Shown one piece after another: positions 1 through 4,024 of a DNA stretch of 64,000 nucleotides; position 1 is the stretch's first letter, and the number at the start of each line of letters is the position of its first letter. Source of the DNA: Sandaracinaceae bacterium (GTDB lineage Bacteria > Myxococcota_A > Polyangia > Polyangiales > JAFGIB01). Where the stretch lies: NCBI GenBank assembly GCA_017881055.1, contig JADGRF010000099.1:1-64000 (forward strand), in the 5' to 3' direction. A program made the position numbers and the translations under genes. The notes under the pieces are model-generated. The model made no database searches and was not told the DNA's origin. It was given only the letters and a program-made list of their open reading frames with translations.

Positions 1-2288
1 GGCCGCAGAACTCATCCGGCGTGCCGACCTCGTCGTGCGCGCGGGCGCGCAGCTCGATCGCTTCGCAGGTTGCGTCGATGCGTGCATCCGCATCCGGGAG
101 CTCCACGGTGTGTCCGGCGCGCGTCTTGCGCCAGCACAGACCCTCGGCGACGGCGAGCCGCAGCACCACTTCGTCGCTGCGATCCAGCGCATCGATCAGC
201 GCGGTGATCGCGAGGTCACCGCCGATCCGCGAGAGCACGCGGGCAATCATGCAGCGCTGCCTGACGCTGCGGGCCGGATCGCGAAGAAGCTCGGCCAACG
301 GTGCTACCGCGTCAGCTGGCACACGCGCCAAGGCGCGTAGCACGATGCTCTGCAGCGTCGCGTCCCCGAGCTTGCCGATCAGCAGCGGCAAGAGGGCGGG
401 GTCCGCGATCTTCGCGCACGCTTCGGCGGCGGCTTTGCGGATCTCGACCTGAGAGTCCGCGAGTAGCGGGGCAAGCAGGTCCGCGTAGCCCGGCAGACCG
501 ATGATCCCCGATCAGCTCTGCCGCCTCCAAGCGCTCGGCGAAGTGCTTGCTGCGCGCACGGCCTTCGAGGTCCGGTCGCGCCAGCGAGTTGCCGTGCTCA
601 CCCCAGTGGCGCGCCAGGCCGATGATCGCGGAATTGCGTAGCGAGCGATCGTTCGAGCCGAGGCGGTCCTTGATGCGCGGCAGCGCCGCCTCTCCGCCGA
701 CTTCGCAGAGCGCGAGCACTGCGGCCTTTCGCACCTCGCGGCGCCCCGATTCGAGCCCGCGTTCGATCACGCCCAGCGCGCCTCCCGCGCGCGCGCGCAC
801 GAGCAGCCTGAGCGCGGCGATCGCAACGTGATCATGCGGACTGTCGACGAGGCTCTCGAGCACGTGCCCGAGCGCGGACAGGTCGCGTTCCTTGATCAGC
901 TCGAGCGTGGCACGCGCGACGTCGGGGTCTTCCGACCGCAGCAACTCTTCGAGCACGGGCGTGGTCGTCGGGCTCTGCAGGATGCGCTCGAGATCGGTCG
1001 GGTCGAGTTGATGTTCGCGCAGCGTGGATGCGAGCGTCTCGCGGTAACGCGGGCGCAGGCGCACGAGCGCCAGCGTGAGCACTGCGCTCAGCAACATCAC
1101 CACGAGCGACAAGCGCTGCACGGCAACGCCCAGGCCGAACAAGGCAAGCAGCAGAAGGCCGGTCAGGCCTTGCGTCGCGGGTGCGATGGCTCCCACGAGG
1201 AGCGGCTGCGCGCGCACGCGGATGCGCGTTGGAAGGGGCAAGAACAGAAGCTCGCGCGAGGGAATGTCCAGCGTCTCAGAGATGGTCATGCGCAGCGAGT
1301 TCACGGCGGCCGACAGCACCAGGAGGGAGAGTGGCGTGGTCACGGCCAGAAAGCTCGCGCCGGCCAGCGCAAGTGGCAGAATCATCAGGCAGTTGATGAT
1401 GCCGAGTCGGTTGAGCAAGCGCGGCACGAGCAGAAACTGAAACAGCAGCTGCGCGAGGCCGACCCAGACGAAGAACGAGCCGAAGAAGCTGGCCAGCTCC
1501 TGCTCGGACTTCGCACTCGCGATCCACTTCATCTGGTAGTCGACGATCACGCCGAGCGAGATCGCGAGCGGGATGACGATCGCCAGATAGCGAACGTACG
1601 GGCGAGCGAATACCACGCGCAATGGCGCACGCTCGGGCTCGCCGTTGTCGCGTGGCGCCTCGTGCACGATCGGCTTGCCGATCCGCACGATCCGGTAGGC
1701 CATCGCGGCGTTCCCGAGTAGCAGCAGCGCGCCGACGTACAAGAGGTTCTTGGTCGCGAGAAACGGCACGACAGCGTGAATGACTTCGCCCGAGACGACT
1801 GTGCCGAGCGCCATGCCGCCCGCAATGAAGCCGTATAGGCGTCGCGCATCGCGCGGCGAGAAGTAGTCGCCCGCGAACGAGAAGAACAACGTGATCGACA
1901 GGATTGCGCACAGCTCCAGCCAGATCACGAGCAGGTAGTAGAGCGATGGGCTGCCGATCTCGACCAGCTGTCGGAAGATTACGACCGAGATCGCAAGCAG
2001 CAGCTGTACACCAATGATCAGCACGCGCCGTGGTAAGCGCGCCGAGAGCGCGTCGAACGCCAGCGCGGCACACACGTTTGCAACTGCCACACCGCCGTAG
2101 ACCAGCGGCAACAAGACTGGGACGCGCGCGGCTGGCAGGTGCGAGAGAAACAGCGTGTCGCCGACTGCGCAACCGACCGTGTAGAACATGCCTACGCCGG
2201 TGAAGAAGCAGAAGAACGCTACGACCAGCTCGGCCTCTTGCGGGCGAATGCCGAACGCCGGCAGGGAGATGTCGAGCAGCCTCCTCAT
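1..2288 (-). CDS. TLC/MFS-like membrane transporter with C-terminal HEAT repeats; frameshifted, 3' end outside window
   Basis: The N-terminal ~410 residues hold about 11-12 hydrophobic helices, starting with a segment rich in Phe (AFFCFFTGVGMFY), resembling the ADP/ATP-translocase (TLC/Npt) branch of MFS-like carriers. From about residue 440 the protein turns into HEAT-like helical repeats (EELLRSEDPDVARATLELI, then AIAALRLLVRA). The frame breaks at a run of four C on the plus strand (506-509). Dropping one base restores an open HEAT frame (GLPGYADLLAPLLADSQVEI and onward) with no stop to position 1, so the gene continues out of the window. The ATG at 2288 is preferred over the TTG at 2294 because a GGGG stretch sits about 9 bases before it. 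It lies 46 bp after the solute-binding lipoprotein gene, probably in one operon. Substrate is unknown; membrane location is clear. Confidence 0.7.
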
Positions 2289-2334
2289 GCGCAATGACCC
2301 CAGAGCCTGGCCATGGTAGCGCAGAGTGCCTGCG

Positions 2335-3168
2335 CTACTCGCAATTGATGGACTGCACGATCCCGACCTGCGCCGTGCCTTCCTGCAGCGCTACGGTCTT
2401 GCCGCACAGGTCGTGCAAGCGCCGGATGTTCGTCGGGTTGCCCAGCTTCACCAGGATGCCCGTGCCGGCCATCATGTAAGGCACGAAGTCCGCGTGCCCC
2501 GCGCGTGCGGGCGTGATGGTCATCGCCGACATCACGATGTCGACCTTGCCACTCTCCAGTGCGGGCAAGAGGTCATCGAAGCCCATCGTCACGATCTCGA
2601 ACTCGACGCCGAGCGCCTTCGCCAACGCCTGTGCGAGCTCGATGTCGGCACCCGCTTCGTGCTTGAGCTCGTCGTAGAACTCCATCGGCGCGAAGGCCAG
2701 CTCGATGCCGACCTGCAGCTTTCCGTCGGCGAGCTGCGGCACGTCTTTGGTTTCCGGCACGACGCCCGGCGTTGCAGGCGGATCGATCTTGCCGATCGCG
2801 AGCGCCCAGTTGCGCAGCACCTGCATGTAGGTGGAGTCGTCCATCGTCTTGCGCAGCGCCGAGGTGATCGCCGCCGTCAGCGGCGTAGCGCCCTTCTTCA
2901 CACCGATGCCGAACGGGCGCGGGTCGAACTGCTCGCGCACGACTTCCAGCGTGCCGGTCGATTCGCGCGCCATGTACGCCATCACGGGGTAGTCGCCGAC
3001 CACGGCCTGCGCCCAGCCGCGTCGCAGCTCGCTCACCGCGCGCGGCGTCGACGCGAACGTGTGGGGCGTCACGGGCTTCTTCGTGATCGAGATGCAGCCG
3101 GTGGCGAGCGACAGCATGGAAGCCGCCCACAGCGCAGCGCGAAGCGACCGCAATTCCCAGGCATTCAT
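2335..3168 (-). CDS. Circularly permuted family-3 solute-binding lipoprotein
   Basis: A lipoprotein signal (MNAWELRSLRAALWAASML then SLATGC, lipid Cys at 25) is followed by a periplasmic amino-acid-type binding domain (SBP_bac_3) whose halves are in reversed order. Residues ~36-125 match the family's second half: TFASTPRAVSELRRG, AVVGDYPVMAY, FGIGVKKG and TYMQVLRNW. Residues ~150-277 match its first half: LQVGIELAFAPMEFYDE, GFDDLLPALESGKVDIVMSA, MTITPAR, and then DLCGKTVALQEGTAQ, where the protein ends. A normal family member runs from LQVGIE to the W-rich end, so the breakpoint lies inside lobe 2. A Pro-rich linker (IDPPATPGVVPETKD) joins the old C- and N-termini. It is divergent from the PilZ gene and precedes the transporter-like gene by 46 bp. 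A role in binding amino acids or related solutes at the outer face is inferred. Confidence 0.85.
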   Translation of the reverse strand: MNAWELRSLRAALWAASMLSLATGCISITKKPVTPHTFASTPRAVSELRRGWAQAVVGDYPVMAYMARESTGTLEVVREQFDPRPFGIGVKKGATPLTAAITSALRKTMDDSTYMQVLRNWALAIGKIDPPATPGVVPETKDVPQLADGKLQVGIELAFAPMEFYDELKHEAGADIELAQALAKALGVEFEIVTMGFDDLLPALESGKVDIVMSAMTITPARAGHADFVPYMMAGTGILVKLGNPTNIRRLHDLCGKTVALQEGTAQVGIVQSINCE

Positions 3169-3331
3169 GGGCGTGAGGCTAGAGCGTCGCGGCGAGCGCC
3201 GTCCAGTTCCCGTGGGGAGTCCGCCCTGCCTGGTGATCTTGCATTTTTCGCAGAATCACGAATATTTCGGCCCCGCGGTGCTTCTCGTGCGTGCAACCGC
3301 TCGCGTAGTGTCGCACGTCGAAGGAGTCCGA

Positions 3332-4024
3332 ATGGAATCGACCGCTCGTAAGTCCACCCGCGCCTCCGTCGAGCTGATCCCGCGCTTTCGCACGCCCGAG
3401 ACGTTCGACTACGTGCAAGGGCGCTGCATCGATCTCTCCGAGGGTGGGATGTTCATCACCGCGAACCTGCCGTGCGAGTCCGGCACGCTGCTGAAGTTCG
3501 AGTGCACCGTCGGCGAGAACCCGAGCGCCGTGAAGGGTGTCGCGCGTGTGGTCTGGCGTCGCACCGGCGACGGGGACCGGCCGAGCGGCATGGGCCTAAA
3601 GTTCGTGAAGCTGGAGCCTGGCAGCCCCGAGGTGATCTCGGGCCTGGTCGAGCATGCGAAGGCGCACGGCATGACCGCGCCCGAGGCCCCGCTCCGTGCG
3701 CAGGTCCGCGTCACCGAGAGCTTCACCTCGCTCCCAGCCGTGCAGCCCGTCGCCGCCGAGACTCCGGCGCCGGCGGTTGCCGTCAGCGCTGCTGCGCCCG
3801 AAGTGAGCGCGGCCGCGGCGCTGGTCGGGGCCGCGAAGCCCGAATCGGCAGTCGACAAGGCTGCTTCCTCGGCAGCTACGGCAGCACCCGTTGCGCCTCG
3901 GCGCGCCGCCGCTCCGTCAGCTGCAACGTCGCCGGTTGCCGAGCCCGCGGCCTCGAGCGGTGCGGCCATCTGGATCGCGCTCGCAGTCGCGGGGGCCTTG
4001 CTCGTCTGGCTGCTGTCGCGCTGA
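3332..4024 (+). CDS. PilZ-domain protein with C-terminal membrane anchor
   Basis: The 230-residue product starts at an ATG with an AAGGAG ribosome site five bases upstream, which decides the start. Residues ~6-100 form a PilZ domain: an R-rich entry (RKSTRASVE), the DLSEGG motif (34-39) and a GMGLKFV strand (86-92). These are the elements that bind c-di-GMP in this family. Residues ~115-205 are an Ala/Pro/Val-rich linker of low complexity, and ~209-228 are a single hydrophobic helix ending in LLSR, so the protein is probably tail-anchored with the PilZ domain in the cytoplasm. It stands alone, divergent from the solute-binding gene and convergent with the Hsp70 gene. A c-di-GMP receptor role is inferred from the motifs; the partner is unknown. 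Confidence 0.85.
   Translation: MESTARKSTRASVELIPRFRTPETFDYVQGRCIDLSEGGMFITANLPCESGTLLKFECTVGENPSAVKGVARVVWRRTGDGDRPSGMGLKFVKLEPGSPEVISGLVEHAKAHGMTAPEAPLRAQVRVTESFTSLPAVQPVAAETPAPAVAVSAAAPEVSAAAALVGAAKPESAVDKAASSAATAAPVAPRRAAAPSAATSPVAEPAASSGAAIWIALAVAGALLVWLLSR

Follow-up and report, generated by a model that had tools for sequence, protein, structure and literature searches.

A circularly permuted family-3 solute-binding lipoprotein with a conserved NTT-HEAT neighbour in Myxococcota

We analysed a stretch of 64,000 nucleotides (the window) at the start of contig JADGRF010000099.1 from a Sandaracinaceae bacterium (assembly GCA_017881055.1). Near its beginning, a 277-aa open reading frame (ORF) on the reverse strand encodes a lipoprotein related to the family-3 solute-binding proteins (SBP_bac_3), followed on the same strand by a gene for a membrane protein with an NTT/MFS domain and HEAT repeats (Table 1). 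The latter gene is cut by the contig start and has an apparent frameshift near position 508, which may reflect either faulty sequencing or genuine decay. Scans of window positions 2200–3400 turned up no promoter or terminator.

Table 1 Features of the lipoprotein gene and its downstream neighbour, with full-length counterparts of the neighbour. Positions are those of the window unless a locus is named.
Feature	Position	Strand	Basis
NTT/MFS membrane domain and HEAT repeats, downstream partner	1..2294	-	Pfam, orthologue comparison
Circularly permuted family-3 solute-binding lipoprotein, 277 aa	2335..3168	-	ORF reading, Pfam, phmmer, orthologues, AlphaFold
Signal peptide and lipobox (LATGC); predicted lipidation Cys25, kept in all five orthologues	3094..3168	-	Alignment; lipobox by inspection
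Old C-terminal half, residues 31–123: most of lobe 2 and final helices	2800..3078	-	phmmer, orthologue alignment
Pro-rich linker, residues 126–147, bridging old C- and N-termini	2728..2793	-	Sequence, alignment
Old N-terminal half, residues 148–277: lobe 1 and start of lobe 2	2338..2727	-	PF00497, phmmer, alignment
Asp59, in old C-terminal half	2992-2994	-	Orthologue alignment
Arg222, in old N-terminal half	2503-2505	-	Orthologue alignment
Cys255, invariant	2404-2406	-	Orthologue alignment
Cys276, two residues before stop, invariant	2341..2343	-	Orthologue alignment
Full-length NTT/MFS-HEAT proteins with two cNMP-binding domains, beside permuted lipoprotein	L057:5156-8746, L058:9707-13303, L060:832-4428		

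The first-pass annotation had proposed that this protein places the C-terminal half of the family before the N-terminal half, and homology searches bore this out. With phmmer against solved structures, residues 149–267 aligned to residues 10–128 of AncQR (4zv1; i-Evalue 1.2e-25) and residues 38–121 to residues 146–230 of the same chain (i-Evalue 1e-7); because both blocks match one chain in reverse order, the swap is far beyond chance. Half-profiles built from ordinary proteins only detected the C-half (3.2e-6) and the N-half (1.8e-30), again in the order C–N. Among the ORFs analysed in which both halves were detected, this order occurred only in the window protein and its orthologues, five in all, and in one other protein (L044, below); ordinary ORFs read N–C, and one tandem ORF read N–C–N–C. 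The SBP_bac_3 profile PF00497 scored 105 bits, above its gathering score of 26.4, at residues 151–246, and as a result of the permutation it matched only profile positions 1–96 of 132 in one stretch. No NCBIfam model matched above cut-off. The window protein is a permuted SBP_bac_3 homologue, its halves reversed, and not a canonical member. A Pro-rich linker joins the old ends, as had been described. The protein also ends where the missing half would have continued: the stop is real, the orthologues end at the same Cys, and in the approximately 46 bases between the stop (2335) and the next gene the domain does not continue, ruling out a missing downstream part.

The cut lies in lobe 2, in agreement with the first reading, in a loop after the helix that follows QEGTAQ and before the strand of PHTF, not at the hinge. 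The accompanying suggestion that it could alter hinge motion or ligand choice found no support, as the hinge is uncut and the amino-acid-anchoring residues are kept. Arg222 and Asp59 are invariant in the alignment of all five orthologues; we take these to be the positions that bind the ligand carboxylate and amino group, respectively, in glutamine-binding protein (GlnBP), and by analogy they are predicted to anchor a ligand amino acid. To judge from the sequence, Cys255 and Cys276 probably form a disulphide holding the new C-terminus in place, and the same Cys pair is present in an unpermuted Rhodococcus relative. That relative reads CGRPLGVQAGTAQ...DCPE-GQAIQIRTFPTN, with the old junction falling between NCE and ...TKKPVTPHTFAST, and the comparison indicates next to no loss or duplication at that point. 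The protein is predicted to be exported and lipidated at Cys25.

AlphaFold modelling from the five orthologues alone gave a mediocre pLDDT of 71.2. Once the alignment was extended with half-length rows of ordinary homologues, which inform each half and not the contacts between halves, it gave one confident domain (pLDDT 92.8, pTM 0.83). The model thus predicts a single complete two-lobed domain, as the permutation reading had anticipated. In Foldseek searches with this model, ordinary family-3 structures aligned mostly over about 78 residues at 0.7–2 Å (AncQR over about 135 columns). The best-ranked near-full-length collinear match was OpuAC of B. subtilis, aligned over 256–261 columns against targets of 257–268 residues, but with a TM of about 0.4 (0.41) and an rmsd of about 10 Å, so that the match speaks for a similar order of elements only and not for close superposition. 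A few more distant folds (11te, 5u4o) likewise aligned over most of the length.

Natural permutation is already documented for the type II periplasmic-binding fold: glycine-betaine-binding proteins, OpuAC (2B4L) among them, have been published as permuted forms of each other (PMC2395249). OpuAC, compared with ProX, shows an event of the kind seen in the window protein, in a fold shared with it, but OpuAC belongs to another sequence family, with 13–14% identity and different partner genes, and the OpuAC Pfam family did not match the window protein at E<=0.001. The two proteins coming from different sequence families, the permutation described here is independent of that in OpuAC.

The same half order, cut point, lipobox Cys and terminal Cys were found by alignment in four further genomes, at 66% (G002), 59% (G006), 54% (G004) and 53% (G192) identity to the window protein. 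The N-terminus of the G192 copy lies at a contig edge. Together with the window genome (G000), these carriers are draft assemblies, 93–98% complete, from five species that span two families, G192 being from the other family of the same class. The protein is patchily distributed, occurring in 4 of 7 genomes of the family, 4 of 184 of the order and 5 of 318 of the class. The G006 copy corresponds to public record JAPPOT010000609.1, from a Myxococcales MAG; a scan of public genome contigs for the permuted protein returned one record, identical to the G006 contig, and plasmid searches returned no close permuted relative.

In a tree built from sequences restored to canonical order, the five permuted orthologues formed one clade (support 98/93) beside actinobacterial and alphaproteobacterial proteins, and a 100/98 branch separated them from the sampled ordinary Myxococcota proteins. 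The half order, the recurrence of the same termini in five separately assembled genomes, the single-domain model and this monophyletic clade support a natural circular permutation of a family-3 solute-binding domain. A second permutant, so far a single example, was found in another Myxococcota genome (G311; L044:1495-2346, reverse strand): an SBP_bac_3 lipoprotein that starts ITTLEQLGGKAFAVPTGT and ends GGISALVRQ, with uninformative gene neighbours. It is cut at the lobe junction, whereas the window protein is cut inside lobe 2, and it falls on the opposite side of the 100/98 branch, though it is a long row there. Because both cuts and tree positions differ, the two permutants apparently arose in separate events.

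A tandem ancestor, suggested at the outset, was not seen in the window's own family, order or class; tandem cases were confined to other lineages. These include SBD1-SBD2 of E. faecalis. In tandem proteins of this GlnPQ type (6h30), and in tandem SBP genes, the C-half of the first copy followed by the N-half of the second resembles the order of the window protein, but they keep all four halves, unlike the window protein, and by analogy offer a possible route to a permutant only. As no tandem form was found in the window's lineage, we infer the duplication route rather than observe it. A pair of ordinary family-3 binding-protein genes in tandem, with overlapping frames, was also noted in genome G178 (L052, 1171-2984, reverse strand). 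On plasmids of Roseomonas gilardii and Terrarubrum flagellatum (L073, L074), SBP genes lie in the same frame 9–15 bases apart. There, tblastn bridged the in-frame neighbours as one permuted match, a caution for automated permutant searches.

The first-pass annotation had also held permuted members of the family to be little described. Among openly licensed papers, we found no report of natural permutation in family 3; for the type II fold, cases are published (PMC2395249). Permutation in this very large amino-acid-binding family is thus apparently undescribed, and apparently occurs twice here, at different cut sites. GlnBP, the arginine-binding protein ArgBP and AncQR have homologous halves, the type II fold and the Arg/Asp ligand-anchoring positions in common with the window protein, which differs from them in its swapped half order, its predicted anchoring via lobe 2 and a genome that lacks a PAAT permease.

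In all five carriers, the next same-strand gene downstream, about 46–72 bases away, encodes an NTT/MFS-HEAT protein. This partner gene is cut by contig ends in G000 and G006; full-length, it encodes 1196 aa in G002 and 1198 aa in G004 and G192. All three full-length partners contain HEAT repeats and two cNMP-binding stretches, in the order NTT/MFS, HEAT, cNMP-binding, and are 47–49% identical across their length. For their membrane domain, MFS_1 fell below cut-off in G002 and G192, TLC was just above cut-off in G002, and neither was found in G004. An NTT match of at least 500 bits occurred in 3 of 379 genomes of the phylum, the same three in which the permuted protein occurs (next best, 162 bits); these come from few lineages and, with G000 and G002 sharing a genus, cannot count as three independent instances. 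No SBP lies upstream at five NTT-HEAT paralogue loci of more distant kinship in Myxococcota. The upstream neighbour varies, being a PilZ gene in G000 and G002 and a hydroxyacid dehydrogenase in G004 and G006. In the window, positions 3332-4024 of the forward strand encode a divergent PilZ-domain protein whose tail is Ala/Pro-rich and which has a C-terminal hydrophobic segment.

A PAAT permease (TIGR01726) was found in none of the five carriers (the control matched in 11 of 14). Among ABC permeases the search covered the PAAT family, and a non-PAAT importer partner is possible. In four of the five carriers (G000, G002, G004, G192) SBP_bac_3 matches nothing but the permuted protein, and G006 has one further match (C170). 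These features, namely that PAAT permeases are missing, that the SBP_bac_3 protein stands alone in four carriers and that the NTT-HEAT neighbour is fixed, are new; the partner gene and the missing permease had gone unremarked in the first-pass annotation. NTT-HEAT-cNBD fusions are described as widespread and functionally uncharacterised, with no binding-protein partner mentioned in the accessible text (PMC5381601). The partner gene shares this architecture, with its cNBD duplicated, and the stable pairing in genomes without a PAAT permease offers a handle on the role of the fusion class.

Taken as a whole, we consider it fairly probable that the protein is a selected natural permutant, derived from trimmed tandem copies, lipid-anchored, amino-acid-binding and serving the neighbouring membrane protein. 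The demonstrated part of this explanation comprises the swapped order, the conserved ends, the occurrence in five species of two families, the confident single-domain model, the lack of a PAAT permease and the fixed neighbour. Probably, an ordinary binding protein existed as two in-frame tandem copies, from which trimming left the C-half of copy one and the N-half of copy two. The product would be secreted and lipid-anchored through Cys25, so that the new N-terminus would itself place the membrane tether on lobe 2, via about a dozen residues, instead of on lobe 1; this shift of the anchor may be what selection kept. The domain would close on a polar amino acid in the usual manner and act as a substrate-delivery or sensing subunit of the neighbouring membrane protein, whose state would be combined on the cytoplasmic side with cyclic-nucleotide and HEAT-mediated signals. 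Most likely, then, the permuted protein would be an extracytoplasmic amino-acid receptor for its NTT-HEAT neighbour. Counting against this partnership, characterised NTT proteins move nucleotides, and an amino-acid receptor would not obviously be useful to them. More tentatively, it could be a dedicated extracytoplasmic subunit of the NTT/MFS-HEAT-cNBD protein, the two forming a new binding-protein-dependent secondary transporter or receptor to which an anchor on lobe 2 is suited.

The lipoprotein could instead be a pure amino-acid sensor that takes no part in transport, with the NTT-HEAT-cNBD protein a signalling receptor rather than a carrier. The HEAT repeats and two cNMP-binding domains of the partner, the lack of a PAAT permease, the lack of any other binding protein in four carriers and the uncharacterised function of the fusions (PMC5381601) are consistent with this; the membrane domain, however, resembles a complete NTT/MFS domain, and we regard a sensor without transport as rather unlikely. 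It is improbable that the protein serves an ordinary ABC importer whose permease is encoded elsewhere, the NTT-HEAT neighbour being incidental. PAAT importers are the normal clients of family-3 proteins, the ligand-binding residues are kept and the carrier genomes are incomplete drafts, but no PAAT permease was found in any of them, and the downstream neighbour is constant while the upstream neighbour changes. That the swapped order stems from misassembly or marks a gene in decay, as a draft contig with an apparently frameshifted neighbour might hint, is extremely improbable and was rejected, since order, ends and Cys are identical in five separately assembled genomes and, as first claimed, both halves are intact, with one unbroken frame, a confident fold and dN < dS in each half (values that are rough at such distances and base composition).
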